Assembly: GCA_001799575.1 (NCBI GenBank)
Contig: MGTT01000005.1
Coordinates: 1 to 38,501 of the forward strand
DNA from: Elusimicrobia bacterium GWA2_56_46
GTDB lineage: Bacteria; Elusimicrobiota; Elusimicrobia; Elusimicrobiales; UBA9959
Reading direction: 5' to 3'
Length of the DNA stretch: 38,501 nt
Positions 1 to 31,930 of this stretch are shown piece by piece (position 1 is the stretch's first letter; each line of letters begins with the position of its first letter). The notes beneath the pieces are model-generated. The model was not told the DNA's origin. It made no database searches and saw only the letters and a program-made list of their open reading frames with translations. A program made the position numbers and the translations under genes.

Positions 1-3000
1 AAAGTATTGCGCCGCCGCTTCCACCGCCCGAACCGTAATTACCACTCCCGTTCCCGGCGCTTCCATCGGCACTTATCGTCCCGTTCACCGTAAGCATTCC
101 AGCCACCGCAAGATCTATCCGGCCGCCGCCGCTCCCGCCATTTACACCGTTTGAACCACCGCCGCCGCTGCCCAAATCGTTTGGACTGACAACACTGCTA
201 TACCAGATCCCTCCAACCGTTCCGCCGCTGCCTGTACCACCCATCCCTCCATATCCGGCGCCGCCGCCCCCGCTTACGGTTGAACCACCGCCGCCACCAG
301 AACCAGATCCGTTTACGCCAGACAGCCCACCTGCGTAACCGAGGCCGCTCACATCCACGCTGCCGCCGGCCTCCACGACCATGTCATTCAACACCCTCAT
401 ATTCACCGCGCATGATTTCTGCGTGCCGTTGGCTCTATGTGTCACCTTACTCCCATTTTTAATCACAATGTTCCCTATCGTCCACTGCGATAACCCAGTC
501 TGTTCCAGCACGGAACCGCGCCCGCTGCCGCTTTCAAGCACCACGCTGCCGAGCGCCGTCAGGCTCGATACGCGCAGCGTCGCACCGGAAAGCGTAAGCG
601 TGGATACGGACGGGAATGTCATCGTGGCTATGCTGATATCGTTCAACCCCGGCAGCAACACGCCTCCGCCGGGAAAATTGCCTTCGCCAGTTAAACTCTC
701 AAGACGGTTCACGCCGCTGAATTCCGCCGAGCCTAAAACGCTTATCCGCGTTATCCCCTCAAACCGCGTTTCGGCGTTCTTGAATACCACCGCGTCCAGG
801 GTAAGGTCCGCGGCCGCTATCGTAGCCGAAGAAATGACCGTCGCGCCGTTCCAGCCGCCGAGACTCGCACTTGTGCGCGATACCAGCAGCCTGGAATTCG
901 CACCGCTTTTTACGTAAATGGTTCCCGCGCCGCCGTTGCCGGCGTAGCCATTGGCTGTGCCGCCATCAGCGCTGAATATTAAATTCGAAGTGTCGATCCC
1001 GGAAGCGGCGACCGCTATACGGCCGCCGCCACCGCCACCGGCAAAACTGCCATATCCACCATTTGCATTTAACCAACCGATCCCTGACAGGTTCCCCGTT
1101 TTTAAATTTATACTGCCGCCGCTGCCCGCGCCGGAACTGCCGTCGCTGTCATGCCCACGCGCGTCTATCGAACCGTTCAGGATAACACTGCCCGCTTCCA
1201 ATATGAATGCGCCCCCGCCTGCTGCCCCGACAGACTGGTTCTGCCCCTGACCGCCGCCGCTGCCCAGGTCTGTGGGACCCATCAGTAAACCGTAGCCAGG
1301 CCCGCCTTCACTCCCGGTGGAATATGCATTGTAGCCTGTGCCCCCGTTGCCGCCATATCCCCCGCCTCCGCCCTGTGCCCATCCGCGGTACGATTCGCCT
1401 CCGCCGCCCGAACCGTAGCCGCCTCTATGAATATACGGATCCCCGCCCGCGTAGCCAAGCCCTTTCAAATTCACTGACGCGCCTTCTTCCACAAGAAACT
1501 CGCCGGCCACTTTCAGATTCACCACGCTCCGTCTTATATCCGCATTGGCCGCATGCTCTATCTTGCCGCCGGCTTTCACGACAAGCGAGTTAAACTGTAG
1601 AAGCGCAAGCGTATTCTGTGTTAATATGGCGTTCTTGTGGATCACAGCGGCCCCGGAAACCGTTATACCGGTTGAAACGATTAAAACAGGCGCGGACACC
1701 CCTTCCGTGTCGCCCAACACGAGTGAATGAAACGCCGCCGGAGAATTTATATAAACCGTGTCCCTGCCGGCGACCACCGCGTTGTCATAAGGCCCCGGGG
1801 CCGCATTGTCCCGCCAGTTCGCCACGTTATTCCAGTCCCCGTCCCCCCCAAGCCCCGACCAGACCGCGGTTCTGGGCGTGCCGACGTATATATTGACGCT
1901 CTTCACCGGGGACATATTGCCTGCATTGTCCACCGCGCTGTAATGAACGGTGTGCGTGCCTATGGGGAGGGAGAACGGCACACTATACCTGGGGTTACGG
2001 CAGGTTCCCGCCGAACCAATAAAATCAGGTTCCACCTGACAGCTTTCGGGACTGGCATCTACAAGGAAGAATATATCCTCAACACCGGAGACAATCCCGG
2101 TTGAGTCCGGATCAATGGCTGACACAGTAACGGAATCTGTTTCAGTCATATACGCCAATCCGCCGGAAGGAATTGTTGAACCATTAATGATCAGGAAAGT
2201 CTCAGGCGGGGCATTATCGCTTTCACGCATTTCCATGTAAGCGCTCTTAACCGATTCCATATTCCCCACATTGTCAAAAGACAGATAATGCACGGTATGT
2301 GTTCCCAAAGAAAGGCGGAACGGTTCGATATATGCGGGGTTCTCGCATGTCCCCGGCTGACCTGTAAAACTCAACGGCTGGCCCGCTGGATTTGCCAGAA
2401 ACTGCATAAGATTTGCGCATTCCGTAAAATTTTTATCGACAATATAGAACGTTCCGTAAATCCCGCTGCGCGCGCCTTTCACCAGAGGATCGTTGGCGGT
2501 TAACGTAACAGTACCGGAAACAACAGCGTAAAAACTGGCGCCGGGGCTAAGATCCTCCATGGAAACCGCCAGAGAAGTTTCCGGAGGCGTGGCGTCCACG
2601 GAAACAGTCGTCCCTTTCGGAAATTCGTAGTTGCCCGCGTTGTCGACACTCATATACCATATAGGATACACGCCCTCACCGGGCAGAACAACAGGATCGG
2701 TGTAGGTGGATATCTCCACGGTGGCAGAATCCGGGTAAAGTATATAGTTGGTCAGATTGACCCCTGAAGAGATCGCATCCTGGATTTGAAGATCGGACGC
2801 GGTGAATATTACAGCGGCCTTACTGGAAATACAAATACCATCGGAAACCGGCATGGCGGCCCCGCCGAAACTTATCGCCGTTTCCGGAGATATGCCGTCT
2901 GGATAGAGAGATGGCGGGAGATTCTCCGCCTGGCTGGAACTGGCGAGCACCGCAAAAAGAGGATATTCTGCGGTTGGAACCCTGGCAGTGAGCGTATTAT

Positions 3001-6000
3001 TGTCTTTGTCCAGGGTAAGGTACGGCAGTTTATGTAACTCGCCGCTTTCCGTGAAACCGTATATAGCCAGCGAGTCCTCATCAACGCCCAGCCCGGAAAC
3101 GATATTACCGTCATAGCGCATTTTAATGGCGCCTGAAGGCTCAAAAGGGGCGGTATCCGTTGAAAGGGTGTACACATTACCCACCGGCAGCTTATTGGCG
3201 GCTTTCAGAGCCGTAAGCGCGGACTGCCCGGCCTGGCTGCTCATGTCATACTGTTCCTGGGAAACAGAAGCGCCGGACATAAATTCCAGTTCCGGGGAAC
3301 CATCGATCAGGTTCTGACTTCTAACCTCCAGAGGCGAGGAGTACTCCGGGGCCAACACCATAAATTTTGAAAACGAAGTGATGTTAGCGGAAATTGTTTT
3401 GTTGGCAGTATCAAGCGTTGTGTCTAATTCTTCGTATTTTCCTGCGGCTGAATCAATTATTTTTACTACTTTCATGGCGTTTTCCTGCCCTGAAGTTACT
3501 ATGCCATATGGGAACTTCAGCACCGCTCTGCTAAAACTCAACTCCGGATCACGGTTTATTTCATATACCACGCCATTGGACGCATTTGCATACCCGTTCG
3601 GCACCCGGCCCGAAGTCAGAGCAAATGAAAGTGTGCCGGGACTGTAAACATTGTCAAAAGCTACGCTAACATTAGAGCTTAAGATAAGCGAAACATTGTT
3701 GCCTGTCGGGACATTTTTATTTTCTACAAGTTGGTTAAGGTCTTCTTGAACCAAGCTTATGCCATATAACAACGGGCCTGCGAGCACAACCCCGGGGTGC
3801 ACATCTGTTCCATCTTGGCAATATGGCGGATTTTGATTGTAGTCGGCAACACCACATAGCGCCGGCACTATTGCGGTTGGGGCTGTTCGTGTTATTTCCA
3901 CATCAATTTGTAGGTATCGCTTCAACGAAATTTTCTTGACGGGGGCGTTATCCTGATAGCAGAGCGGGGCGTGAAGTGTGACCCCCATAATGTCCGTACC
4001 AGGTAAAAAGCCAACCTCCCCAGCACAAGTCGTGCCCGGCAATAATTCTGATGAAAAAAATAGTTCCCTGTCAGAAGTAATATATTCCTGCGCATCCGCC
4101 AGATCGGGAGAATCGCCTGTGCGCGTCAATATTTTAATATGCCCTACCTCTTGCCTTGTTCCGATGGGTCCAGAAGCAGTGAACGGCGCGATGAATGTAT
4201 GCAAAACTCTTGTATCTGTCCACACCGAATCATCGCCAATAATTTCGGTTTCAATTGCTGCCCCGCCAGACAACATGGCTGGAGTGAAAGCGGTTACGTC
4301 CATTACCGGTGTCTGAACATTTGCCACAGCTGGTGGATTGAATGATATAGCCGTGTTATAGTCTACCGACCCGGTGATGCTCAACCGACAACCTTTTTCC
4401 CTATAATTACCGTAAATATCAGTCGCGCGCGCTTTAAAGGGAAAACCGCTATAAACGCTGGCTATGGTGGTTGAAAGTTCAAGCGACACAATCGAATTAT
4501 CAGTGTTGATATCCCTGCCGACCAGAACGGCGTCGTTCTCGTCGAGCAACTCCACTTTCTTCAGCGCCGAGCTGGCGGACGCCTCAACCATTATATTGGC
4601 GGTAAAATCGCATGGGCTCGGGAAAATTCCGTGCGGCGCAGGACAATTCAGCATAGTCACCCGCGATGCCGCGGTCGAAATAGACACCTCAATATGATCT
4701 ATCCTGAACGGCGTTTTTGTTTCGGCTCCAACGGCGTTGTAAGAGCGGGCCACATAATCCCCAACAGGCAGGTCGGGAAGGGCCGTGAAGGTGCTGAGAA
4801 CGGGCGGATTAAAACCCCAAGTAACAAGATTGCCCTGCGGGCCATCGATTTTTACAGCAGAAACCCCGGCAACGGACTCGTTGAAATCAAAAGTATGGGA
4901 GCGCTCAAGCGTGGGAGGGGATATGGCTGAAACGCCCCGGAAATTATTATAAATCGGGCTTGCAGAATTTATATTTATGGCGCTTAGAGGCGGAATTTTA
5001 AAATTAAATTGCTGACTGCTGTTGCCCGCATGGTCGTAGGCAGTAGCGGTAAAATAGCCTGGGCTTAAGCCACTCTCCTTTGAAAACGGAGCAGAACTCG
5101 ACTGTTGAATATTCCCGATTTGAATTGCGCTATCTTTTAAAAGCTCGGCGACAAACGGGGTGAAATTCTCCTGGCCGTATTCAGAATCGTAGGGCTCCTT
5201 ATGTATCTTCAGCAGGCCGGGGCCGGAACCGGCGTCGGATATAGTAAATGATATGGTGCCTGAGGCGGTCTCGCCTGTAATCGGATTGCCGGAGGAATCT
5301 TTTGCCGTAAGTTGCGGCTGGTCTATCCCCGAAGTGGCCAGCCAGCCGCGCTGGGTGCTCGGATACAATTGCATGCCGGCGGCCATATCCATTAACGCCG
5401 CGACATCGTACTTCCTTGTCAGATTAAGCGGCTGCCCTATAGTGCCGCGCGCTATCGGAACGCCGGCGGCGGCATAGGCATACTCAACAAAAGAGTCGCA
5501 GCGCAGCCGCTTGATGTCGTTGATTCCAATAGTATCACCGTAATAAGACAAATCTTTCTGTGTCGTGAAATAATTCACCACCATTTTGGCTGCGGATTCA
5601 CCGGGCATGACTATATAGTCAATTGGAATCTCGCGATTTTTCAGGGCTTGGGCCCAGTCAAGAATCCTCGTCTTTTTATCAAGTGTAATCCCTTCTTGAA
5701 GTGTAAACGCTCCATAATAATGCGGATGAGCTCTCTGGAACTCTTGAAAGTTATCAAAGCCGATTCTTTCAACTTCAGTGACCATCTTCCCGATATGAAA
5801 GCCCTCGTCGTCCACCCATATACTGAACTTTGAGCCACCGGTTGTTACCCCAGCCATCTGGATGACTTCATGGAACAGCGGCATGCTTGGCGGCAGCCCT
5901 TCTTTGTAGGTATGCCCAACGTAAATAGCCACGTGGTCGTTAAAGTAGCCCAAAGGCCAGTCAAGTTTGCGGTATACCACATCGGCTACTTCCTGGCCGG

Positions 6001-6076
6001 CCAGGCTGCCGTCTTGCGCCGCGCCTGGGGCCGGATAGAAAAGCAGGAACAGCAGCGGTAAAAACTTCGGTTTCAT
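1..6076 (-). CDS. Giant secreted surface protein, N-terminal permuted NlpC/P60-like domain (partial)
   Basis: I read this frame by eye through 2025 codons from the ATG at 6076 without a stop; it runs off the left edge, so the C-terminus is missing. Residues 1-20 are a signal peptide (MKPKFLPLLFLLFYPAPGAA). Residues about 40-215 carry His48 in DHVAIYVG and Cys193 in RCDSFVEYAYAAAGV. These resemble the two catalytic motifs of NlpC/P60 cysteine peptidases but in the reverse (circularly permuted) order. Residues about 280-1400 look like Ig-like/OmpL47-type repeats, including two GTHTVHY..DN.GN modules at about 1236-1270 and 1356-1385, each with a Cys pair. WSGLGGDGDW at 1406 opens a beta-helix-like region that becomes extremely Gly-rich from about 1550. 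Likely an exported adhesin or wall-associated protein. The start overlaps the upstream stop (ATGA). Domain assignment is by motif only. Confidence 0.8.
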   Translation of the reverse strand, partial: MKPKFLPLLFLLFYPAPGAAQDGSLAGQEVADVVYRKLDWPLGYFNDHVAIYVGHTYKEGLPPSMPLFHEVIQMAGVTTGGSKFSIWVDDEGFHIGKMVTEVERIGFDNFQEFQRAHPHYYGAFTLQEGITLDKKTRILDWAQALKNREIPIDYIVMPGESAAKMVVNYFTTQKDLSYYGDTIGINDIKRLRCDSFVEYAYAAAGVPIARGTIGQPLNLTRKYDVAALMDMAAGMQLYPSTQRGWLATSGIDQPQLTAKDSSGNPITGETASGTISFTISDAGSGPGLLKIHKEPYDSEYGQENFTPFVAELLKDSAIQIGNIQQSSSAPFSKESGLSPGYFTATAYDHAGNSSQQFNFKIPPLSAININSASPIYNNFRGVSAISPPTLERSHTFDFNESVAGVSAVKIDGPQGNLVTWGFNPPVLSTFTALPDLPVGDYVARSYNAVGAETKTPFRIDHIEVSISTAASRVTMLNCPAPHGIFPSPCDFTANIMVEASASSALKKVELLDENDAVLVGRDINTDNSIVSLELSTTIASVYSGFPFKARATDIYGNYREKGCRLSITGSVDYNTAISFNPPAVANVQTPVMDVTAFTPAMLSGGAAIETEIIGDDSVWTDTRVLHTFIAPFTASGPIGTRQEVGHIKILTRTGDSPDLADAQEYITSDRELFFSSELLPGTTCAGEVGFLPGTDIMGVTLHAPLCYQDNAPVKKISLKRYLQIDVEITRTAPTAIVPALCGVADYNQNPPYCQDGTDVHPGVVLAGPLLYGISLVQEDLNQLVENKNVPTGNNVSLILSSNVSVAFDNVYSPGTLSFALTSGRVPNGYANASNGVVYEINRDPELSFSRAVLKFPYGIVTSGQENAMKVVKIIDSAAGKYEELDTTLDTANKTISANITSFSKFMVLAPEYSSPLEVRSQNLIDGSPELEFMSGASVSQEQYDMSSQAGQSALTALKAANKLPVGNVYTLSTDTAPFEPSGAIKMRYDGNIVSGLGVDEDSLAIYGFTESGELHKLPYLTLDKDNNTLTARVPTAEYPLFAVLASSSQAENLPPSLYPDGISPETAISFGGAAMPVSDGICISSKAAVIFTASDLQIQDAISSGVNLTNYILYPDSATVEISTYTDPVVLPGEGVYPIWYMSVDNAGNYEFPKGTTVSVDATPPETSLAVSMEDLSPGASFYAVVSGTVTLTANDPLVKGARSGIYGTFYIVDKNFTECANLMQFLANPAGQPLSFTGQPGTCENPAYIEPFRLSLGTHTVHYLSFDNVGNMESVKSAYMEMRESDNAPPETFLIINGSTIPSGGLAYMTETDSVTVSAIDPDSTGIVSGVEDIFFLVDASPESCQVEPDFIGSAGTCRNPRYSVPFSLPIGTHTVHYSAVDNAGNMSPVKSVNIYVGTPRTAVWSGLGGDGDWNNVANWRDNAAPGPYDNAVVAGRDTVYINSPAAFHSLVLGDTEGVSAPVLIVSTGITVSGAAVIHKNAILTQNTLALLQFNSLVVKAGGKIEHAANADIRRSVVNLKVAGEFLVEEGASVNLKGLGYAGGDPYIHRGGYGSGGGGESYRGWAQGGGGGYGGNGGTGYNAYSTGSEGGPGYGLLMGPTDLGSGGGQGQNQSVGAAGGGAFILEAGSVILNGSIDARGHDSDGSSGAGSGGSINLKTGNLSGIGWLNANGGYGSFAGGGGGGRIAVAASGIDTSNLIFSADGGTANGYAGNGGAGTIYVKSGANSRLLVSRTSASLGGWNGATVISSATIAAADLTLDAVVFKNAETRFEGITRISVLGSAEFSGVNRLESLTGEGNFPGGGVLLPGLNDISIATMTFPSVSTLTLSGATLRVSSLTALGSVVLESGSGRGSVLEQTGLSQWTIGNIVIKNGSKVTHRANGTQKSCAVNMRVLNDMVVEAGGSVDVSGLGYAGGLSGVNGSGSGGGGGSTVSGGGGAGYGGMGGTGSGGTVGGIWYSSVVSPNDLGSGGGGSNGVNGGSGGGRIDLAVAGMLTVNGTISADGSAGNGSGNYGSGGGSGGAIL

Positions 6077-7116
6077 GGCCTGCCGCCTTTTTTGTGCCTG
6101 CCGATTATTTCACCCAGTTTCTTTTTCAACTTCTGGTCATGTTCGCTGTTGCGCGTCTCTTCTAGGATTGGAAGGACTTTTTCTTTTGGCAGGTTCCCAC
6201 TGCCTATCTGACTGTCCAGGAAATCGGCTGTCGCTTCGCGGGTTATGGCGTTGGTACTTTTGATTTTTTTTGTGAGGCGAGGAATATCATCACTCCCGCA
6301 TACCCCCTTATTTTTAATCATTTCCAAAGCTATCCTCAGTCTTTTCCCCTCCCGTGCGTCTATATACTTCCAAAGCCACGGATACACAAGTGCCCCTTCC
6401 GGCGTATACCCCTTGTATTCCGCAGGTATCGGCTTGGATTTGAAGTCTTCATACCTGTCAACTATGACGTCAAGAACATTAGGGTCACCTTGATAGCGGT
6501 CCGGCAGGCTTAATCCTACCCCGACAAATTCTTTTAAATCCTGCGTGGTTTTCAGGAACTCCTTTATTTCCTCTATCGCGCGCTCTGGATTAGCCTTTGC
6601 CAAAGTTGCCATACTCAAACCCCTGGCAATAACACCGTTTTTTTCCAATGACTTAATTTTGTCGTAAATAACATCGCCGTGAACTCCATACGGTCCGTCG
6701 ATACTCCACATGGCCATCTTGCGATATTCATCCTTATCTGAATCCAGGACTTTTATAAAGAAATCCTGGGCTTCCGAACTACTATCGGACGCGCCTATAG
6801 CCTCCAGGATTCTCTTTTTGTTGGCATTATTGGTTAGGGAAGAATCATCTACGGCGTAGTAGATTTTTATCAACCGCCTCGTGGCTTCTAGCCTGGCCCC
6901 GGCATCAAGATCGGGCTTCTTCATCAAATCCACTATATCCTGAAGCGCGTTATTGGTAGCCATCGGGGACCACCTTTGCCACCGCTCTGCTGAAGCCAAG
7001 CGCTTCTCTAACTTTTCCTGTGTTGATAGTATTTCCGTCCCGCTTCCAGCTCGAACACACTGGCCGCTCAAAGCCACCAGCAGCAAGATAGTAGTTACAG
7101 GAAAAAGCTTTTTCAT
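6073..7116 (-). CDS. Exported HEAT-like helical-repeat protein
   Basis: A 347-residue protein beginning with a signal peptide (MKKLFPVTTILLLVALSG...). I chose the ATG at 7116 because GGAG lies nine bases upstream and the signal peptide then sits at the N-terminus; a longer in-frame version from 7221 would bury it. The rest is Lys/Glu-rich and predicted helical, with repeated helix pairs (for example around AREATADFL and KVLPILEETRNSEHDQKLKKKLG) resembling HEAT/armadillo scaffolds. No catalytic motif is visible. The TGA stop overlaps the ATG of the giant surface protein by four bases, so the two are almost certainly co-translated. A role as periplasmic partner or assembly factor of that protein is inference. 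The Cys in LSGQC does not fit a good lipobox. Confidence 0.75.
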   Translation of the reverse strand: MKKLFPVTTILLLVALSGQCVRAGSGTEILSTQEKLEKRLASAERWQRWSPMATNNALQDIVDLMKKPDLDAGARLEATRRLIKIYYAVDDSSLTNNANKKRILEAIGASDSSSEAQDFFIKVLDSDKDEYRKMAMWSIDGPYGVHGDVIYDKIKSLEKNGVIARGLSMATLAKANPERAIEEIKEFLKTTQDLKEFVGVGLSLPDRYQGDPNVLDVIVDRYEDFKSKPIPAEYKGYTPEGALVYPWLWKYIDAREGKRLRIALEMIKNKGVCGSDDIPRLTKKIKSTNAITREATADFLDSQIGSGNLPKEKVLPILEETRNSEHDQKLKKKLGEIIGRHKKGGRP

Positions 7117-7220
7117 AGGTTCTCCGTGGTGCGCATCTTTAGATTCACAAAGCAATATCGCTTTCAACGCTCCTCTCAGAAATACAATCTCCGCAAAGAC
7201 CCTTAATCTGTCAACTGGCA

Positions 7221-7234
7221 CGGGCTAGAGCCCG
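7221..7234. repeat. Short perfect hairpin
   Basis: CGGGCT-AG-AGCCCG forms a 6-bp stem with a two-base loop. It lies about 105 bases upstream of the HEAT-like gene start, next to the G-run cluster. There is no T-tract, so it is not a classical terminator. Confidence 0.5.
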
Positions 7235-10017: not shown

Positions 10018-11280
10018 TTAAGCAATAAGATCCCGCTTCCTGTACGCTGTCTTTCCTTTTTTTATGGTCAGTTTGTTCAGATTGGCGCCGAAATAGTAGC
10101 AGAGTTCCCGGTAATCCGAGGCGTCGAATACGGCGAGGTCGGCCTGTTTGCCGGGTTCGATGGTTCCCGTCCAGTCTCCCGCGCCGAGGGCGTGGGCGCC
10201 GTTTATGGTGGCGGCGCACAACGCCTCTTCCGGCGTCATCTTCATGTGGGTGCAGGCAGCCGAAAGAACCATCTGCATATTCCAGCAGGGAGCGGTGCCA
10301 GGGTTAAAATCGGTGGCCAGCGCCACCGGCACGCAGCCGGCGATGAAGGCCCGCGCGTCCGGATACCTGGAAAGCCCGAGGAAGAAATTAGAGACCGGCA
10401 GCAGGGTGGCTACGACTCCGCCCCGGCGCAGATCGCGTATATCGCGCGGCAGGGCGTAATCGAGATGATCGGCGCTCACAGCCCCGGTTTTCACGCCCAC
10501 CCACGCGCCGCCGTAATTTGAAAGCTGCTCGGCGTGGATCTTGGGCACAAGCCCGCGCCGTAAACAGGCGTTGAGGTAAGACCTGCTTTCCTCGGGGGTG
10601 AAGTATCCCCGTTCGCAGAAGATATCCGCGAATTGCGCCAGATCTCCGGCAACTACCGCCGGCACTATCTCATCAAGCACATAGCGCAGGTATTTCCCGG
10701 AATCGCCCTTGAATTCAGGCGGCACCGCGTGGGCCGCCAACAGCGTGGGCACCATCTCCAGCCTGGTGCGCGAAGCCGCGGCGCGCACCGCTTCCAGCAT
10801 TTTAAGTTCCGATTTCTTATCCAGGCCGTAACCCGTCTTAACCTCTATCGTGGCGGTGCCGCATTCCAGGAAGCGCTCCGCGCGTTCCAGCAGCTGCGAA
10901 ACCATGTTTGCCGGCGCCTGACGGCGGACGGCCTTTACGCTGGAGATTATTCCCCCGCCCCGCGCCCTGATCCCGGCATAGGAAACGCCCTGCGTGCGCA
11001 GCGAAAAATCCCTGAGCCTGGGCTCGGCGAAAACCGCGTGGGTATGGCTGTCCACAAAAGCCGGCAAAACTATTCCGTTCGCCTCCACGACACGGGCCTT
11101 TTTCGCCAGAGGGTGCCGCAGCACTTCCCGTTCTTTTCCCGCCGCCGTTACGCGTCCGTTCTTCATGAGCACGGCCGCGTTCTTTACAAGCCCGATTTCC
11201 CCCTGCGCGCGGCCGGCGCGCGGCCCGGAGGGGCCCCGGAAAGTGAGCAGTTGTTTAATGTTGGCTAATAGTAAAATCAT
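10018..11280 (-). CDS. hutI: Imidazolonepropionase
   Basis: A 420-residue amidohydrolase that opens the ring of 4-imidazolone-5-propionate to give N-formimino-L-glutamate, the third step of histidine degradation. Visible hallmarks are the metal pair His79/His81 in VDSHTHAVF, RTQGVSYAGIRARGGGI, EVKTGYGLD, HAEQLSNYGG, SADHLDY, and ATDFNPGTAPCWNMQ with the metal Asp. The ATG at 11280 is chosen because GAGAGG lies eight bases upstream; a longer frame from 11298 adds six residues with no ribosome site. It lies downstream of hutU and yajQ. The gap to yajQ is occupied by a dispersed palindromic repeat, so transcription may be partly uncoupled there. Confidence 0.95.
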   Translation of the reverse strand: MILLLANIKQLLTFRGPSGPRAGRAQGEIGLVKNAAVLMKNGRVTAAGKEREVLRHPLAKKARVVEANGIVLPAFVDSHTHAVFAEPRLRDFSLRTQGVSYAGIRARGGGIISSVKAVRRQAPANMVSQLLERAERFLECGTATIEVKTGYGLDKKSELKMLEAVRAAASRTRLEMVPTLLAAHAVPPEFKGDSGKYLRYVLDEIVPAVVAGDLAQFADIFCERGYFTPEESRSYLNACLRRGLVPKIHAEQLSNYGGAWVGVKTGAVSADHLDYALPRDIRDLRRGGVVATLLPVSNFFLGLSRYPDARAFIAGCVPVALATDFNPGTAPCWNMQMVLSAACTHMKMTPEEALCAATINGAHALGAGDWTGTIEPGKQADLAVFDASDYRELCYYFGANLNKLTIKKGKTAYRKRDLIA

Positions 11281-11292
11281 GGATTTACCTCT

Positions 11293-11391
11293 CGTCATTC
11301 CCGCATGCTTTTAGCGGGAATCCATAAATCTTTTATTAATGGATCCCGGCCAACAACTCGCCGGGATGACGGGTTTGCTGAATGCATACCT
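11293..11391. repeat. Dispersed nested palindrome, copy 1
   Basis: CGTCATTCCCGC at 11293 is answered by GGGATGACG ending at 11371. Inside are two smaller hairpins (CCCGC..GCGGG and CCCGGC..GCCGGG) either side of an AATCCATAAATC/AATGGATCC centre. A 20-base tail (GGGTTTGCTGAATGCATACC) is shared, with two changes, with the copy at 18928. It fills the hutI-yajQ gap. Confidence 0.85.
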
Positions 11392-11410
11392 CAAACCTTC
11401 TAACCTCTCT

Positions 11411-11908
11411 CTACCGAAAGTTATCGAACTGTAAAGTTACTCCGAAGTCTCCGCCGCGCAGGAGCGCCATTACGTTCTGCAGTTCGTCCTTGGACTTGGA
11501 AGTAACGCGCAGCGTGTCGCCCTGTATCGAGACGTTGGCTTTTAACTTATGGTCTTTAACGGCCCGCACTATCTCCTTGGCCTTGTCCTGCGGTATGCCC
11601 TGCTGCACCTTTACGGCCTGCTTGGCGGTTCCGCCCAGGGCGCTCTCAATTTTCTGCGGCTCAAAGTTTTTCAGCGGCAGGCCGCGCTTTGAGAGCTTTG
11701 TAAGAAGCACGTCGTAAAGCGCCTTGATCTTAAAGTCGTCGCAGGATTGGAGCATTATGCTGTTGGCCTTTTTGTCGAAGTTTATCTCGGACTTGGAGTC
11801 CTTGAAGTCATAGCGGTTCACAACTTCCTTCATCGCGATCGAGATAGCCTCGTCAACCAGCGTATACTCCACCTTGGAAACCACATCGAAACTGAATTCA
11901 TTTGCCAT
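11411..11908 (-). CDS. yajQ: YajQ-family nucleotide-binding protein
   Basis: A 165-residue protein of the YajQ/UPF0234 family: EFSFDVVSKVEYTLVDEAI at the N-terminus, VVNRYDFKDSKSEI, SKRGLPLKNFEPQKIESA, and the C-terminal DTLRVTSKSKDELQNVMALLR. Members are two-RRM-like-fold proteins that bind nucleotides; some (in Xanthomonas) bind cyclic di-GMP and act in signalling. I choose the ATG at 11908: GGAGG lies nine bases upstream, whereas the alternative ATG at 11917 directly abuts that GGAGG and could not use it. It sits between hutU (33 bases upstream) and hutI, an unusual neighbour for a histidine pathway. A regulatory role there is speculation. Confidence 0.93.
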   Translation of the reverse strand: MANEFSFDVVSKVEYTLVDEAISIAMKEVVNRYDFKDSKSEINFDKKANSIMLQSCDDFKIKALYDVLLTKLSKRGLPLKNFEPQKIESALGGTAKQAVKVQQGIPQDKAKEIVRAVKDHKLKANVSIQGDTLRVTSKSKDELQNVMALLRGGDFGVTLQFDNFR

Positions 11909-11940
11909 AATTGTCATCCTCCATTGATATCCTCTATACG

Positions 11941-13602
11941 CTATTTCATCATCGGCACTTTTACTCCCGTCTTTTTGGCGAAAGCTATCGCCTTATCGTA
12001 GCCCGCGTCGGCGTGGCGCAATACGCCCATGGCCGGATCGTTGGTCAGGACGCGTTCAAGGCGGCGGTCCATCTCTTTGGAGCCGTCAGCCACTATTACC
12101 TGGCCCGCGTGCAGGGAATAGCCCATGCCCACGCCCCCGCCGTGATGGAACGAAACCCAGCTGGCGCCCGAAGCGGTGTTCACCAGGGCGTTGAGTATGG
12201 GCCAGTCGGCGATGGCGTCCGAGCCGTCTTTCATGGCCTCTGTCTCGCGGTAAGGGCTGGCCACGGAGCCGGAGTCCAGATGGTCGCGTCCTATGACCAC
12301 CGGCGCGGAGAGTTTCCCCGTCCTGACGTACTCGTTAAGTTTCATGCCGAAGCGATGCCGTTCGCCATAGCCAAGCCAGCAGATGCGCGAGGGATAGCCC
12401 TGGAACCTGACCCTCTCCGCGGCCATGCTGATCCAGCGCCTGAGCCCCTCGTTCTCCGGAAACATCTCCAGCACCAGCTTATCGGTGACCGCGATGTCTT
12501 TCGGATCCCCGGAAAGGGCCGCCCAGCGGAACGGGCCTTTTCCCTCGCAGAAAAGATCTCTTATGTACGCGGGTACGAAACCGGGGAAATCATAAGCGTT
12601 CCTGACGCCCTGCTTAAAAGCCATGGTGCGGATATTATTGCCGTAGTCGAAAGTGACGGCGCCCGCTTTTTGCAGCGCGAGCATGGCTTCTACGTGGACG
12701 GCTATAGACTCCAGGGCCAGGGCCGTATATTTTTTAGGGTCTTTTTTCCGCATCGCCGCGGCGTCTTTCATGGTGAAGCCTTTGGGCACATAGCCATTGA
12801 GCGGGTCGTGAGACGAAGTCTGATCGGTGAGCACGTCGATGCGGACTTTTCTGCGCGCCATTTCCGGCAGGATCTCGGCGCAGTTGCCGAGCAGCGCGAT
12901 GGAAAGCGGTTTTTTTTCTTTCATGGCCTTGCCGGCCAGGGCCAGCGCCTCGTCCAGAGAAGACGCCATAACATCCACGTATTCCGTGTCCAGACGCCGC
13001 TTAATGCGGGTTTCGTCAACTTCTATGATAATGGCCACGCCGTTGTTCATGGTGACAGCAAGCGGCTGGGCCCCGCCCATGCCGCCGAGGCCGCCCGACA
13101 CAACGAGCTTTCCGGAGAGGTCGCTCTTGAAATGTTTCCGCGCGCAGGCGGCGAAAGTCTCATAGGTGCCCTGCAGGATGCCCTGCGTGCCGATATAGAT
13201 CCAGGAGCCGGCCGTCATCTGGCCGTACATCATAAGGCCTTTCTTCTCCAGTTCGTCGAAAACTTCCCAGTTGGCCCAGTTGCCTACCAGATTGGAATTC
13301 GCCAGCAGCACGCGCGGAGCGTATTCGTGCGTACGGAGGACTCCCACCGGTTTGCCGGACTGCACCAGCAGGGTCTCGTCGTTCTCCAGTTCCGTGAGCG
13401 ATCTCACTATGGCCCTGTAACAGTCCCAGTCGCGGGCGGCTTTGCCGCGTCCGCCGTAAACCACCAGGTCTTCCGGGCGCTCCGCCACTTCGGGATCCAG
13501 ATTATTCATGAGCATACGCAGCGCGGCTTCCTGCTGCCAGCCCTTGCACGAAATCTTATTCCCGCGCGCTCCGCGGATCATCTTCTCAGCTATTGGAATC
13601 AT
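11941..13602 (-). CDS. hutU: Urocanate hydratase
   Basis: A 553-residue NAD-dependent enzyme converting urocanate to imidazolonepropionate, the second step of histidine degradation. Family landmarks include [41 protein letters not shown], the NAD-binding stretch [32 protein letters not shown], the active-site Cys region [12 protein letters not shown], and [17 protein letters not shown]. Length matches the family. The ATG at 13602 has GGAGG seven bases upstream. It is separated from hutH by an 80-base gap containing a heptad inverted repeat and is followed closely by yajQ. Confidence 0.97.
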
Positions 13603-13629
13603 GATATATCCTCCATTAAAACCGATGGC

Positions 13630-13670
13630 CCGTGGTGATTGATTTGCCGTTCACCGACCACTCACCACTG
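13630..13670. repeat. Heptad-type inverted repeat, site A (hutH-hutU gap)
   Basis: Left arm CGTGGTGATTGATTTG (13631-13646) and right arm CACCGACCACTCACCACTG (13652-13670) are degenerate GTGGTGA-like units in opposite orientation. The element starts 13 bases past the hutH stop codon. It is the most degenerate of four such sites. Confidence 0.55.
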
Positions 13671-13682
13671 CCCACCATCATT

Positions 13683-15230
13683 TCACACTAAAAAGTATCC
13701 GTCGAGTATCGCCTGCGCCACCGTTTCTATCCTGACTGAAAACTCTTCGTCTCCCCTGAAACCCGGAGCTATGCGGCGCAGGCGCGCCAGGGCGTCCTCT
13801 ATGCGCGCGCCCGATCTGAGCGGCCGGTGGAATTCCACGCCCTGGGCGGCCGCCAGCAGTTCTATGGCGGTGATCTTCGCGACATTTTCCACGATCGTAC
13901 CTAATTTAAGGGCGGCGCTCATCCCCATGCTTACAAAATCTTCCTTGTTGGCCGAGGTGGGGATGGAATCGGCGCTGGCCGGGTGGCTCAGGATCTTGTT
14001 CTCGCTGGCCAGGGCGGCCGCGGTCACGTGTGCGATCATGAAACCGGATTCGAGGCCGGGATTTTTTGCCAGGAAGGGCGGCAGGATCTTGAAATCGCTA
14101 ACGAGCTGGGCTATGCGGCGTTCGCTCATATTGCCCATGGCCGTGACGGCGATGGCGGCGAAATCAAAGGCGAAAGCCAGCGCCTGTCCGTGGAAATTTC
14201 CGCCGGAAAGCACTTCCAGGCCGTTTTTGCGCCTTTGCGTTTTCGCTCCTTTATGCCAGACCAGCAGGGGATTGTCGGTAACGCTGGCAAACTCCGTTTC
14301 CACGGTATTCAGGGCGTACTCTACGGCGTCGCGCACGGCGCCCAGAACCTGCGGCATACAGCGCAGGCTATAAGGATCCTGCACGCGCTTGTCGTCGCGT
14401 TTGTGGGAAGCCCTGATCTCGCTGCCTTTGAGCAGTTCCAGAAGCATAGAGGCGGCTTCCACCTGGCCGCGGTGGGGTTTTAGGAGATGTATGCGCTCGT
14501 CAAAGGCGGCCGGCGTGCCCTTAAGCGCCTCTACGCTGACGGCGCCGGTGAGAACGGCGGCATTGTAAAGTTTAAGCGCGTCATAAAGCGCCAGACCGCC
14601 GACGGCCTGCATGGCCTGGGTGCCGTTGATAAGGGCCAGACCCTCTTTCTCCGCCAGTTCCACGGGCTTGATCTTCAACGCTTTCAACACTTTGCCCGAC
14701 GGCGCCCAATCTCTTAACTTCGAACCCCCGGCAATCCGCGCCCTTCCCTCGCCGATGAGGCACAGGGCCATGTGAGCGCTCGGCGCCAGGTCTCCGCTGG
14801 CGCCCACCGAACCTTTTGAAGGAATATAGGGTACGAGTCCTTTGTTCAGGAACTCGGCTAGTTTTTCCACTATCAGCGGCCGGACGCCGGAATGCGCGCG
14901 CGCCAGTTCATTGGCCCTGGCGAACATGAGGCCCCGGGCCTGCTCCGCGGTCAGCGGAGCGCCTACGCCGCAGGCATGGCTGCGGATCAGGTTGACCTGG
15001 AGGCGCCTGAGGTTCTCATCGGAGACGCGCTCGGTGGCCAGCTGGCCGAATCCGGTATTGATACCGTACATGGTGCTGTTCTTTTTCAGAAGAATTCCGA
15101 GTTCTTTCCTGGCAAGCGCCACGCGCCCGCGGACGACGGGAGTAAAGACCACTTTAAGCGCCCCCGCGGCGACCAGGGCGAACTCCTCTATCGTCGGATT
15201 GTCACCGAGGGTAAAAGCGTTGTTTTTCAT
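13683..15230 (-). CDS. hutH: Histidine ammonia-lyase
   Basis: A 515-residue lyase that removes ammonia from L-histidine to give urocanate, the committing step of histidine use. The Ala144-Ser145-Gly146 triad in GSVGASGDLAPSAHMAL forms the MIO cofactor. Tyr55 in MYGINTGFG, the QxxxQVNLIRSHACGVG-like stretch, GTQAMQAVG and QDPYSLRCMPQVLGAVRD are all present. I prefer the ATG at 15230, which has GGAG seven bases upstream. A GTG at 15260 overlaps the upstream exonuclease stop (GTGA) but lacks a ribosome site. It probably shares a transcript with the exonuclease gene. HutU, HutI and FtcD in this window supply the following steps. Confidence 0.97.
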   Translation of the reverse strand: MKNNAFTLGDNPTIEEFALVAAGALKVVFTPVVRGRVALARKELGILLKKNSTMYGINTGFGQLATERVSDENLRRLQVNLIRSHACGVGAPLTAEQARGLMFARANELARAHSGVRPLIVEKLAEFLNKGLVPYIPSKGSVGASGDLAPSAHMALCLIGEGRARIAGGSKLRDWAPSGKVLKALKIKPVELAEKEGLALINGTQAMQAVGGLALYDALKLYNAAVLTGAVSVEALKGTPAAFDERIHLLKPHRGQVEAASMLLELLKGSEIRASHKRDDKRVQDPYSLRCMPQVLGAVRDAVEYALNTVETEFASVTDNPLLVWHKGAKTQRRKNGLEVLSGGNFHGQALAFAFDFAAIAVTAMGNMSERRIAQLVSDFKILPPFLAKNPGLESGFMIAHVTAAALASENKILSHPASADSIPTSANKEDFVSMGMSAALKLGTIVENVAKITAIELLAAAQGVEFHRPLRSGARIEDALARLRRIAPGFRGDEEFSVRIETVAQAILDGYFLV

Positions 15231-15256
15231 TTTTATTCTCCGTTCCATGCTCTCCG

Positions 15257-15859
15257 TCACGATCTATGGCGGTTAAGTTTCGGCGCTTTCTTCAGCACAT
15301 CGGCGATCGTTACCGCTCCGTCTTTTCTGAATATGACCATAAAATGCTCGAAGATCTTGCGCGTCATCTCCACGTCGCTGAGCGCCCGGTGCCAGTTCTC
15401 GTCGGAAATTTCCAGTTCCTTGGCGATGGTGCCCAGGCGGTTATTGGAGAACCCGCCGAGCTGCCGGGCTATGTGCAGAGTGTCTATAACCGGCAGTTCC
15501 GGCAGTTTGAGGCCGGCGCGCGCGAATTCCATCTGCAGGAAGGAGAGGTCGAATTCGGCGTTATGAGCCACTATGACTGAGCCCTCCAGCAGCGCGAGAA
15601 GGCGCGGCGCCAGGGCCGGAAAAGCCGGGCTGTCTTTGACCATGGCGTCCGTGATACCGTGGATCCTGGACGTTTCAGGCGGTATCGGCAGCCCCGGATT
15701 AATCAGCGAAGCGAAGTGGCCGACCCGGTAATTGCCCTGAAAAGCGATCAGCGCCACCTCGCAGACCCGCGAAGTCCTGGGCGAGAGGCCGGTGGTTTCC
15801 ACGTCCAGGAAAGTAAAAACGGCCTCATCTATGGAACGGTGCAGTTCAAGCGGCGTCAT
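15257..15859 (-). CDS. DEDDh 3'-5' exonuclease (DNA polymerase III epsilon-like)
   Basis: A 200-residue exonuclease with all DEDDh residues visible: Asp19 and Glu21 in FLDVETTG, Asp104 in HNAEFD, and His157 and Asp162 in NWHRALSDVEMT. Such proteins proofread or trim DNA or RNA 3' ends using two metal ions. The length and lack of a polymerase-binding tail make a stand-alone DnaQ-like nuclease more likely than the true replicative epsilon subunit, but this cannot be settled here. The ATG at 15859 has AGGA upstream. The stop lies just before hutH, with a possible four-base GTGA overlap to an alternative hutH start, so the two are likely co-transcribed without an obvious functional link. Confidence 0.9.
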   Translation of the reverse strand: MTPLELHRSIDEAVFTFLDVETTGLSPRTSRVCEVALIAFQGNYRVGHFASLINPGLPIPPETSRIHGITDAMVKDSPAFPALAPRLLALLEGSVIVAHNAEFDLSFLQMEFARAGLKLPELPVIDTLHIARQLGGFSNNRLGTIAKELEISDENWHRALSDVEMTRKIFEHFMVIFRKDGAVTIADVLKKAPKLNRHRS

Positions 15860-16664: not shown

Positions 16665-18851
16665 CTATTTCGACGTCAGATTAAACGTCCCGTCCCACTC
16701 CGCGGGCGCGCCGCCCGCTGAATATTTCTCCGCCAGGCCCAGATAAAAAGCGCTGGGCCCGTCATTCGGATCCGCGGCGAGCGCTGTCTTAAAGGCCCCG
16801 GCGGCTTTGGCGAAGCCGCCTTTATGAAAATCTTCAAAACCCGCGTTATAAGCGGCCAGGACTTTCGTCCGGACGGCATCCAGCTTCCCCTTATGGGCCA
16901 GCAGCTCGTACACTTTTACGGGTATGGCTTTGCCCACCACCCGCACCCGGCCCAGGCAGCGCGCTTCCACGGCGCCGGCGGCGCCCTCGTATGTATCTTC
17001 GCTGACCATGATCCGCGAATGGAAAAATTTATTGGCGCCCTCCAGCCGGGAAGCCAGGTTCACGGAATCCCCCAGCACCGTATAGGAAAAGCGCGTGCTG
17101 GAACCCATGTTGCCCACTACCATCGGGCCTGAGTTGAGGCCGATCCTGAAAGAGGGTTTGATAGCGGAATCATTGAGCTCGCCGTTGAGACGGGCCAGTT
17201 CGCCGGTGCAGTCCACCGCGGCCAGACAGGCCAGCCGGCGGTGGTCTTTCTGATCCAGCGGAGCGTTCCAGAACGCCATAATGCAGTCGCCGATGAACTT
17301 GTCCACCACGCCGTCATACTTCAGAATGACGTCGGTCAGGCCCGAGAGATACTTGTTCAGCAGGGCGGTAAGCTGCTCGGGCGACAGTTTTTCCGACATC
17401 GAGGTGAAACCGGCGATATCCAGGAAAAAAACCGTCATATCGCGTTTCTCTCCGCCCAAAGTGAGTTTTGAAGGGTCTCTGGTTATTATCTCCACGACCT
17501 TGGGAGACAGGTACTGTCCGAAAGTGTTCTTTATCCATTTCTTCTCGCGCCCTTCCGCAAGGCCTTTCTCCACGGTTATCCAGGCGAAAGGAATGAAGAA
17601 AGCCCCCATTACGGAAATAAACGGCATGACCACAAGATTGGAAAAAAGAACCACGTCCATGACGGTCAGAACCGCCATCGTTGAAACCGAAACCGCCACC
17701 ATGGCTTTGAGGGAAAACCGGCGCATCACGACGGGGATCCAGGGCAGCGCCAGAATCAGCAGCGCGACATAAACTTCGCCCAGATTTTTCCTGAAATCAT
17801 TGCCGAGAGCGTTGTCTATGAACGTAGCGTGCACCTCCACTCCCGGATAGAGCGCCATGAAAGGATTAGGCACATGGTCAAAAGCGCCCAAAGCGGTGGC
17901 TCCGATAAGCGTGACGCCTCCTTTTAGGGCGTCTTTTTCCTCCTGGCTGAGCCTGCCCTCCAGCACGTCCGCCGCGGACAGGTGCCGATAACTTGAAAGC
18001 GTGCTTTTTAAATCTTCCTTGCGCCAGCCCGGATGCAGCTTACGCTTGAACGGATACCGGTAATTCAGAATATTTATCCCGTCATAGGCCGTTTCAAGTT
18101 CGGCCAGTGATTTCCCGGAATAATCCGCGTAGACCGCCATTCCCAGCGAGGCTATTTTGACGTTACCGCAGGTCTTTGCGCATCTCAGGTTTTTTATGCC
18201 GGTCCGGCCGTAAGTGAAATATTCATAAGCGCCGCTCTCCGTCGGCCTGGGCTTATAGAACGGCCAGTACTTTCTTACATATCCGTCGGGATCGAGCGCT
18301 ATATCCACATTCGGATACGCTATATAACTGCTGGCCCCGGCAAGGCCCTTTATAGGCTGGGTGATCTCCCAGGTATACTGATCCACGCCGATCAGATTCA
18401 CCACGTTGCCGGCTTTTTTAACGGCCTCCACATACCTTAGATCATTCGCCGGATTGTCCCTGTCCGGCTCGAACAGCAGCACGTCGGTTCCAATGCTCTT
18501 TACCCCGAGCCGGTTCAGTTTTTCCACCAGGTCACCGTAATAGCGCCTCTTTATGGGCCACCCGTACCGGCTTAAGGTATAATCGTCCAGCGCGGTGACG
18601 GTGATCTTAGGATTGGCCGTCTTGTTTATATACTTGCCGAAAAGGAAAGTGTCGTTATACTTGTCGGAAAACACATTGACAGACGCGAGCTTGTTGGGCA
18701 AACGTACGAGAAAATCATTCCAGTAACTGTCCAGCTGCGCTTCCTGGTCGAAAAAAACCGGCATAAACCGCATGAACAGAAGCCACAGGAAAGAAAAAGA
18801 CAGAACCACGGCATAGAATTTTTTTGAAACTTTGTTTTTATTTACGTCCAT
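16665..18851 (-). CDS. CHASE2-domain class III adenylate cyclase
   Basis: A 728-residue membrane cyclase making cAMP. One N-terminal helix (about 12-32) is followed by an extracytoplasmic CHASE2 sensor (about 35-345, e.g. VTALDDYTLSRYGWPIKRRYYGDLV and GVTLIGATALGAFD), membrane helices at about 357-425, a cyclase domain (about 465-635) and a helical TPR-like tail (about 645-715). Key cyclase residues are present: metal Asp478 (FFLDIAGFTS) and Asp522 (IGDCIMAFW), adenine-selecting Lys518 and Asp595 (VLGDSVNLASRLE), Asn598 and Arg602. Lys/Asp point to ATP rather than GTP. GGGGAGG lies four bases before the ATG. The signal sensed is unknown. Confidence 0.93.
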   Translation of the reverse strand: MDVNKNKVSKKFYAVVLSFSFLWLLFMRFMPVFFDQEAQLDSYWNDFLVRLPNKLASVNVFSDKYNDTFLFGKYINKTANPKITVTALDDYTLSRYGWPIKRRYYGDLVEKLNRLGVKSIGTDVLLFEPDRDNPANDLRYVEAVKKAGNVVNLIGVDQYTWEITQPIKGLAGASSYIAYPNVDIALDPDGYVRKYWPFYKPRPTESGAYEYFTYGRTGIKNLRCAKTCGNVKIASLGMAVYADYSGKSLAELETAYDGINILNYRYPFKRKLHPGWRKEDLKSTLSSYRHLSAADVLEGRLSQEEKDALKGGVTLIGATALGAFDHVPNPFMALYPGVEVHATFIDNALGNDFRKNLGEVYVALLILALPWIPVVMRRFSLKAMVAVSVSTMAVLTVMDVVLFSNLVVMPFISVMGAFFIPFAWITVEKGLAEGREKKWIKNTFGQYLSPKVVEIITRDPSKLTLGGEKRDMTVFFLDIAGFTSMSEKLSPEQLTALLNKYLSGLTDVILKYDGVVDKFIGDCIMAFWNAPLDQKDHRRLACLAAVDCTGELARLNGELNDSAIKPSFRIGLNSGPMVVGNMGSSTRFSYTVLGDSVNLASRLEGANKFFHSRIMVSEDTYEGAAGAVEARCLGRVRVVGKAIPVKVYELLAHKGKLDAVRTKVLAAYNAGFEDFHKGGFAKAAGAFKTALAADPNDGPSAFYLGLAEKYSAGGAPAEWDGTFNLTSK

Positions 18852-27548: not shown

Positions 27549-28187
27549 TTAAAAACCGTAGACGAGGAAGGCCGAGGGCACGATATTATCGGCCGAATCC
27601 ACGTTGAAATTATCGCCGCGCATGGCGAAAATGTGGTGCCAGCGCAGTTCCAGACCCAACTGGAAAGCCCCCCACAGCGGATACATCGCGCCTCCGCCCA
27701 TATTGATACCGAAACTGGAACCGGAATCGGACGCGTAAGTTTTACCATCCGCGCTGAAACGCGGCTGGGCCCATTGATATACTCCGGCCCCGAAAAGGCC
27801 GTAATAGGTCTGCTTACCGTTTTGATAGGCGGCCCGCAAAAAGGGCGTAAGCGAGAAAATGCGGATCTCCATATCCGCGATGGGCCTGTTTTTGTGACCG
27901 AGGCTGTAGGAAGTTTCCAGCCCGTAACTTAGAGTGTCGTCCACTTTTCTGGCGCCCTCCAGGAGAAAAGCGGTAGCTGGCTTGAAGCCGTCGGATCTGT
28001 CGCCCCAATGCCCGCCGAGCGGAACGGCGGCGCCGCGGCCCAAAACGAAATAATACCGTGACAATCGCTGCGCAGGCGCATCAGCCACCCCGGGCATCTT
28101 TGAGACAGCCTCCCTCAATTCCGGCTGTGCCCCCGCCCCGACCGGCAACATGAGCCAGCAGACAACAGCCAGTACAATGTGCCTCAT
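27549..28187 (-). CDS. Outer-membrane beta-barrel-like protein
   Basis: A 212-residue protein with a signal peptide (MRHIVLAVVCWLMLPVGAGA) and then alternating polar/hydrophobic strands rich in Gly and aromatics (YYFVLGRGAAVPLGG, TLSYGLETSYSLGH, TYYGLFGAGVYQWA, FQLGLELRWHHIF). It ends in AFLVYGF, with the C-terminal Phe typical of barrels inserted by BamA. The length suits an eight-stranded OmpA/OmpW-like barrel. I choose the ATG at 28187, which has GAGG five bases upstream; the longer frame from 28217 overlaps the epimerase gene. It follows the epimerase stop by seven bases and so is probably the last gene of that operon. Cargo or role is unknown. Confidence 0.75.
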   Translation of the reverse strand: MRHIVLAVVCWLMLPVGAGAQPELREAVSKMPGVADAPAQRLSRYYFVLGRGAAVPLGGHWGDRSDGFKPATAFLLEGARKVDDTLSYGLETSYSLGHKNRPIADMEIRIFSLTPFLRAAYQNGKQTYYGLFGAGVYQWAQPRFSADGKTYASDSGSSFGINMGGGAMYPLWGAFQLGLELRWHHIFAMRGDNFNVDSADNIVPSAFLVYGF

Positions 28188-28194
28188 AGATCCC

Positions 28195-29280
28195 TCATCT
28201 CTCATCCCTCGGCACATAGCCTATGCCCGCCTTTATAGCCGCGATGTCGTAAACTCCGCAGGAGGAAATATATCTTCCCCCCCGCATCACCTTTTCTTTT
28301 ATCAGGAGCGGCGTGTCCAGGTCTATAAAATCGAATCCGCCCAGGCCCGAAGCGAACTGCGCCGCGCAAACCGAAGCCAGCTCGGTTTCCAGCATTTCGC
28401 CCATCATAAGCTTCACCCCGGCGGCCCGGGCCAGCGCCCACACCTCGCGCGCGCGCAGCATACCGAATTTGGCCAGCTTGATATTAATGGCCGTAACCTG
28501 CTTTTTCCTGATAAGCTCCACGACATCGGCCACGGAATAAGCGCTCTCATCCGCGCAGACGGGGATCTTAAGCTTCCTGGAAAGATAGGCCAATCCCTCG
28601 CGATCGTCCCTGGCCACAGGCTGCTCTATCACGCCGGGCACAATCCCGGCTTTCGCCAGCTTAGACACGAAATGCTCGGCTGTTTTCGCGTCGTATGCCC
28701 CGTTGAAGTCCAGATAGATCTCGGCCCCGGGCGCCGCTTTCCTGACGGCGGCGATGCGCCTGAAATCCGCGTCCGCGTCGGAACCGGTCTTGATCTTGAA
28801 AATGGAAAAACCGCGCTTACGCATCCTCGCGGCAAAGTCATAAGCCTGGGGTTCGGAACCGATCACCACGGTGATATCGGTCCTGATCGGGGAGGGCTTG
28901 CTCCCGTACAGCCGCCAAAGCGGTATTTTCAGCGAGCGCGTAAGCGCGTCCAGAACCGCCATCCCCGCGGCGGCCAAAGCGCAGCGGTTGCTTTCCAGCC
29001 GCTCTTCAAGCCCCGCCAGCAGGCCGAAATAATCCGCGACGTCGCGGCCCTCCAGCCAGGCGGCCGTTTTTTCAAGGTTCGCCAGAGTCTGTTTCCGGGT
29101 TTCTCCGGTAATATGAGGCGCGATAGCGGCCTCGCCCCAGCCCCAGACGCCCTCGCTGGTCCGGACGCCCAATAAAACATTTTCAAGACGCTTATGGCTC
29201 CCGCTGGAAATGGTGAACGGCTGGAAAAGCCCGGCGTCCACGCCGCGCACCACGGTCTTTGCTATCGCGGTCTCGTTCAT
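28195..29280 (-). CDS. Dipeptide epimerase (enolase superfamily, probable L-Ala-D/L-Glu epimerase)
   Basis: A 361-residue enzyme of the muconate-lactonizing-type enolase superfamily. Acid/base Lys162 and Lys164 in FKIKTG, metal ligands Asp191 (LDFNGAY), Glu219 (IEQP) and Asp244 (CADES), Lys268 (IKLAKFG), and Asp320-x-Asp322 (FIDLDTPL), the DxD that marks dipeptide epimerases, are all visible. The usual substrate is L-Ala-D-Glu from peptidoglycan, converted to L-Ala-L-Glu for reuse. Substrate scope in this superfamily varies, so the exact dipeptide is inference. The ATG is 12 bases past the wecA-like stop, within a long minus-strand operon. MurQ, elsewhere in the window, also acts in wall recycling. 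Confidence 0.88.
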   Translation of the reverse strand: MNETAIAKTVVRGVDAGLFQPFTISSGSHKRLENVLLGVRTSEGVWGWGEAAIAPHITGETRKQTLANLEKTAAWLEGRDVADYFGLLAGLEERLESNRCALAAAGMAVLDALTRSLKIPLWRLYGSKPSPIRTDITVVIGSEPQAYDFAARMRKRGFSIFKIKTGSDADADFRRIAAVRKAAPGAEIYLDFNGAYDAKTAEHFVSKLAKAGIVPGVIEQPVARDDREGLAYLSRKLKIPVCADESAYSVADVVELIRKKQVTAINIKLAKFGMLRAREVWALARAAGVKLMMGEMLETELASVCAAQFASGLGGFDFIDLDTPLLIKEKVMRGGRYISSCGVYDIAAIKAGIGYVPRDER

Positions 29281-29292
29281 ATTTTTGTATCT

Positions 29293-31049: not shown

Positions 31050-31092
31050 TTTAAAATCTCCTTTCCCCCGCGCCCCAGCCCTCTACCCTAGC

Positions 31093-31890: not shown

Positions 31891-31930
31891 CTCGTTAATA
31901 TTTAAATATATAAAGCGGAAGCAATGCAAC

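Follow-up and report, generated by a model that had tools for sequence, protein, structure and literature searches.

The window, by which we mean the whole 38,501-nucleotide stretch analysed, opens with a giant surface-protein ORF on the minus strand (2–6076) that encodes at least 2025 amino acids. Contig C5 of this 2.66-Mb draft genome begins where the window begins, and the giant frame is still open there, its 3′ end lying beyond the contig start. Read from the N-terminus, the protein comprises a signal-peptide-like segment (residues 1–20, MKPKFLPLLFLLFYPAPGAA; 6017–6076, minus strand), recognized by reading the sequence; the domain under study here (residues 24–212 as modelled; 5441–6007, minus strand), identified by hhalign, profiles, and an AF2 model; an Ig-like region (1877–5341, minus strand) containing OmpL47-type repeats (NF047446, E = 1.7e-25) and matches to CHB_HEX_C_1/HYR; and glycine-rich modules (2–1430, minus strand) that share exact 55-mers with an ORF lying at the end of another contig of this genome, C18. 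That ORF of 2364 amino acids (L128:9490–16581, G000:C18 end) contains glycine-rich modules and NHL repeats, closes with a CTD-like end, and is followed by a PorV-family gene. Because of the exact shared 55-mers, the CTD-like end, and the PorV-like gene after it, the C18 ORF probably encodes the C-terminal half of the giant in the window, and if it does belong to that protein, the whole would probably measure about 4,400 amino acids or more; a search for an exact overlap between the C5 start and the C18 end found none, the repeat modules alone being common to both. The first-pass annotation had described a signal peptide followed by an NlpC/P60-like domain joined to more than 1800 adhesin-like residues. 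The N-terminus does look like a signal peptide and the giant fusion is present, but the true length is greater, as the ORF leaves the contig.

Immediately upstream is a gene for a secreted HEAT-repeat protein (6073–7221, minus strand; likely true start an ATG at about 7116, MKKLFPVTT). Its stop codon and the start of the giant overlap as ATGA, an arrangement also seen at L010, L011, and L012, three of the related loci described below. Elsewhere in the window are a histidine-degradation-like cluster of amidohydrolase, urocanase, and aromatic amino acid lyase genes (10018–15260, minus strand), and a gene for a protein with CHASE2 and adenylate/guanylate cyclase domains (16665–18851).

Within the domain, all on the minus strand, Asp32 (5981–5983) is the equivalent of the Asp in the superfamily's GD motif on the first strand; the window reads AD, the Asp being kept and the Gly replaced by Ala. 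Of the 32 aligned sequences, 31 have Asp at this position, and the remaining one (L043) is cut there by a contig end. The catalytic His equivalent is His48 in DHVAIYVG (5933–5935), which is invariant in the aligned homologues (32/32), and the nucleophile equivalent is Cys193 in RLRCDSFVEYAYAAAGV (5498–5500, codon TGC). These two residues and the FHEVIQ stretch are where the first-pass annotation had put them, and its central point, that His precedes Cys in the chain, holds both for the residues themselves and for the profile pieces, which are swapped relative to canonical structures (see below). Tyr154 (5615–5617) probably corresponds to the Tyr conserved in the active site (28 of the 32 sequences have Tyr there). 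By sequence alignment Gln73 (5858–5860) occupies what is probably the place of the third, polar catalytic residue. The residue there is Gln in the window, L012, and L013 and Glu in L010 and L011, in an alignment that is loose around this point outside the five closest giants. An insert ahead of the nucleophile (residues 158–190; 5507–5605) is degenerate in the window. In the secondary structure of the model, His48 is predicted at the start of a strand and Cys193 at the start of a helix; the Cys of BcPPNE likewise lies at a helix N-terminus.

A Pfam scan of the window domain matched no family: against Peptidase_C92 (PF05708) there was no match at all, let alone one at the curated cut-off. The LRAT profile (PF04970) matched no member of alignment A7 at E 0.01, and searching the PDB directly with the sequence of the domain returned nothing relevant. 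Taken alone, these missing Pfam and PDB hits would suit a chance motif match in a protein unrelated to papain-like folds. Comparison of families gives a different picture. In hhalign, the five close giants (window included) aligned with Elusimicrobiota relatives, most of them HEAT-fused, at 96.4% (E = 1.4e-9), as against about 2% or below for reversed and shuffled controls, and four of these relatives (L077, L119, L120, and L123) pass the Pfam C92 cut-off. The link to C92 is a transitive one, because Pfam yields no match for the domain itself and the close giants set directly against plain C92 proteins reach 1% in hhalign. A profile built from 17 members of the family matches canonical NlpC/P60 structures (9ubf, E = 9e-7; CwlO, 1.6e-5) as two pieces in swapped order, in 9ubf with profile residues 105–154 aligned to chain residues 16–67 and profile residues 5–41 to chain residues 78–110. 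Such a two-piece, swapped-order profile match is the signature of circular permutation. A canonical, unpermuted reading of the domain is ruled out by hhalign, by the conservation among aligned homologues, and by these swapped-order matches.

The first-pass annotation had suggested an HMM search and a structural search as checks. The former gave no direct Pfam match, but the family profile does find NlpC/P60 structures. For the latter we used an AF2 model of modest confidence (pLDDT 58.5, pTM 0.60); a first model from five sequences (pLDDT 44) was set aside as poor. The only entries that stood out for the predicted structure in VIA-align were 3kw0 (BcPPNE; Z 7.2 over 127 residues), 2if6 (YiiX; Z 7.2 over 115), and 6v98 (TseH; Z 5.2), the next entry scoring 2.6, and a Z of 7.2 is middling by VIA's own notes, being below 8. 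Foldseek with the same model (pLDDT 58.5) found nothing significant. Because model confidence is modest and Z is below 8, the papain-like fold assignment leans on the sequence profiles. The hhalign result, the conservation over 32 sequences, the swapped NlpC/P60 profile matches, and the matches of the AF2 model all speak against a chance match, which we regard as very improbable. The head domain is very probably of the NlpC/P60 (papain-like) type, in a divergent and circularly permuted form, and the permuted group proposed in the first-pass annotation is borne out by transitive profile homology, the swapped matches, and the structural matches of the model.

A search for the domain in 101 relatives recovered it in six further genomes, mostly with giant open frames; the best E-value for the family in other Elusimicrobiota genomes was 1e-42, and profile searches of 341 genomes of the phylum reached further families. 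The invariance of His48 across all 32 sequences, together with recovery of the family from other genomes of the phylum, takes the observation beyond chance. Giants with a readable domain have frames of 3500 (L010), 2211 (L011), 2293 (L012), 1879 (L013), 1736 (L043, 5′ end cut), 2539 (L044), and 2197 (L045) amino acids; the L059 frame has 1090, and those of L046, L060, L061, and L062 are shorter, some of them possibly cut by contig ends. Fusion of the domain to the head of a giant, which had been called unusual, is present as described but recurs across the phylum. A tblastn search of plasmids found nothing, and viral contigs searched with the HEAT-type profile contained no relatives.

Twelve loci have the HEAT-type gene upstream of the domain gene, and seven (L011, L012, L013, L014, L043, L044, and L045) have a PorV-like gene downstream, so that beyond the first-pass annotation there is a phylum-wide module of HEAT gene, giant, and PorV-like gene. 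In many genomes, this one included, HEAT repeats and the permuted domain also occur in one chain, in frames of 315–464 amino acids. These fused proteins (L068–L078, L119, and L120) carry the same domain by profile, and a link to HEAT repeats, a Cys motif (FDCVG, as against RCDG in the window), and an L.P..Q tail motif are common to both forms. They differ from the window protein in that the HEAT part is fused rather than encoded by a neighbouring gene, there is no giant surface part, and all aligned members have Cys. That the two are joined in one chain elsewhere is the strongest sign of the HEAT protein and the domain working together, and the HEAT protein is probably a physical partner of the domain. 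Where the domain heads a giant, the HEAT repeats have a gene of their own, translationally coupled upstream, whose product would act as a binding partner or chaperone. On the best explanation, the domain belongs to an Elusimicrobiota lineage of secreted HEAT plus permuted NlpC/P60 proteins. A concrete partner gene can be named, together with a probable export route.

Several features point to that route. The CTDs of two relatives score at the cut-off of 23 for the type IX secretion (T9SS) type A sorting domain (TIGR04183; L010, 23.2 bits; L043, 27.3), as expected of type IX cargo, and a PorV-family gene is adjacent. The window giant's own C-terminus is not on contig C5, and the C18-end ORF, its probable C-terminal half, reaches 19.7 against the same cut-off; if the two are one gene, the CTD of the window protein lies on another contig. 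The PorV-like gene near the C18 end scores 141.9 bits with NF033709 (cut-off 90), and the genome holds about 20 PorV-like genes. SprA-like ORFs, mostly of about 1,750–1,950 amino acids, occur in 162 of 199 Elusimicrobiota genomes, with E-values down to 1e-24 per stretch in a TIGR04189 search, all matches falling below the NCBI curated cut-off. The genome's own SprA/Sov-like translocon ORF (1795 amino acids; G000:C9, about 28000–33387, L132:2001–7388, minus strand) gives E = 3.1e-41 and 140.7 bits with TIGR04189, against an equivalog cut-off of 200; searching the PDB with the sequence of this SprA-like protein found nothing. The type-IX-like sorting domain that closes the giants and the wide occurrence of SprA-like translocons make export of the giant by a type-IX-like route likely, judging from sequence. 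The protein would first be exported by Sec and then cross the outer membrane through a SprA/PorV-type system using its C-terminal sorting domain, with the PorV-like gene usually next door to the giant. The modules fused to the enzyme domain (Ig-like, glycine-rich, and, in relatives, NHL modules, with the type-IX-like sorting domain last) would place it at the far, N-terminal tip of a long surface protein. Several published accounts treat type IX secretion as confined to Bacteroidota, whereas the cargo here is from Elusimicrobiota. The SprA- and PorV-like genes suggest a type-IX-like system outside Bacteroidota, and their presence in most Elusimicrobiota genomes examined bears on the Bacteroidota-only view.

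The same neighbourhoods could be read to mean that the domain is an export or processing factor, modifying type-IX-like cargo, for example in an acyl or transpeptidase reaction, instead of acting on targets outside the cell. In this genome a fused HEAT-plus-domain gene has a PorV-like gene and the gene of a protein with a terminal CTD as neighbours, and the giants too have a PorV-like neighbour. However, a PorV-like gene was unseen in most flanks of the fused genes, which extend only about 1.5 kb, and in the giant the domain sits in cis at the opposite end from the CTD. We consider this role improbable and prefer an enzyme exported at the tip of the giant.

What such an enzyme might act on is suggested by its known relatives. 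The YaeF/YiiX type (PF05708, Peptidase_C92; 3kw0 and 2if6) shares with the window domain the His-before-Cys order, the GD-motif Asp, the His and Cys motifs, and, by alignment, the conserved Tyr, and includes the best structural matches of the window model. The window domain differs from that type in having no Pfam hit, AD for GD, an insert of about 25 residues ahead of the Cys, a place at the head of a giant protein, Ser for Cys in three relatives, and Gln73 at the probable third position, where the YaeF/YiiX residue is Glu (as in L010 and L011; the alignment is loose there). With the LRAT family (PF04970) it shares the permuted papain-like order. For LRAT a Cys is described at position +7 relative to the nucleophile (PMC3142127); L010, L011, and L012 have one there, and the window has Ala. 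By analogy with YiiX and BcPPNE, for which a lipid-amide activity has been proposed (PMC3142127), Cys193, His48, the polar residue, and Tyr154 could catalyse cleavage or transfer at an acyl amide, either a lipid–amino acid or a wall amide; a lipid amide as substrate is a tentative suggestion drawn from that analogy. The domain might instead be a peptidoglycan hydrolase that, like canonical NlpC/P60 enzymes, cuts peptides of the wall, whether to remodel it or to attack neighbouring cells. There is precedent in the superfamily, and the solved structures that the family profile matches best by sequence are those of canonical wall hydrolases. Permuted relatives with structures, however, have a hydrophobic S1 site, and a fatty acid is present in YiiX (PMC3142127); moreover, a fibre beyond the outer membrane would be out of reach of the cell's own wall, so that we think a peptidoglycan hydrolase unlikely.

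The identity of the nucleophile in this family is not fixed. It is Cys in 29 of the 32 aligned sequences, among them every other giant and every HEAT-fused relative in the alignment, and the three exceptions, L011, L012, and L013, have Ser and are all near relatives of the window protein. Among the five close giants, Ser is in three (3/5), and Cys is kept in the window and in L010, its closest relative by identity; His48, Tyr154, Arg192, Asp194, and Glu198 are invariant across the five. A tree built on residues 1–1000, some branches of which are long, requires the Cys/Ser label to change three times, and well-supported branches force at least two of the changes. These changes, the Ser in three giants whose five other residues are invariant, and the variation of the third residue between Gln and Glu are what a pseudoenzyme would predict: the permuted papain-like fold would be kept as a binding or capping module at the fibre tip, with catalysis lost or being lost and Cys193 a remnant. 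Against it, Cys persists in the window, in L010, in all other giants, and in all HEAT-fused relatives aligned, and papain-like proteins with Ser at the nucleophile position are known and may still be active (PMC10318531). We rate a pseudoenzyme as possible but the less probable case. The first-pass annotation had assumed an enzyme; Cys193 is indeed there, but activity is less sure than was implied because three close relatives have Ser and the window has Gln at the probable third position. From its sequence this copy may well be active, if by no great measure of confidence, and our best model has the domain degenerate in some lineages. Since these are natural Cys-to-Ser variants with the remaining site kept, the activity of the serine forms is directly testable.

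The explanation that we favour overall, with some reserve, is an exported giant bearing a permuted NlpC/P60 acyl-amide or wall-amide enzyme at its tip, accompanied by a HEAT partner. The homology, the permuted order, and the operon are what the data show; the export route, the orientation of the giant, the partner's role, the activity, and the substrate are inferred. It would place a lipid- or wall-acting type of enzyme outside the cell, on giant proteins of a little-studied phylum. A bolder version, in which type-IX-like export in Elusimicrobiota carries giant cargo with a tip acyl-amide enzyme, a HEAT partner, repeated Cys/Ser switches, and, in some members, calcium control, is speculative and unlikely to hold in full.

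Its calcium element comes from an EF-hand pattern (PROSITE PS00018) that L013, L014, and L043 all match at one aligned position, immediately ahead of the nucleophile, against a background of 6.4e-5 matches per residue. The window's copy of this EF-hand-like loop is degenerate.

Three loci carry incomplete copies of the domain. At L014:1291–2425 (G058) the domain frame is lost just ahead of the nucleophile and the DNA that follows codes for part of a PorV-like protein, reflecting either an internal deletion or an assembly join. At L015 (about 6943–7200) and L049 (G007:C137), domain fragments stand beside unrelated coding sequence, GIY-YIG-like and an NAD-ligase-like frame as judged by eye, and are likely assembly chimeras or deletion remnants.
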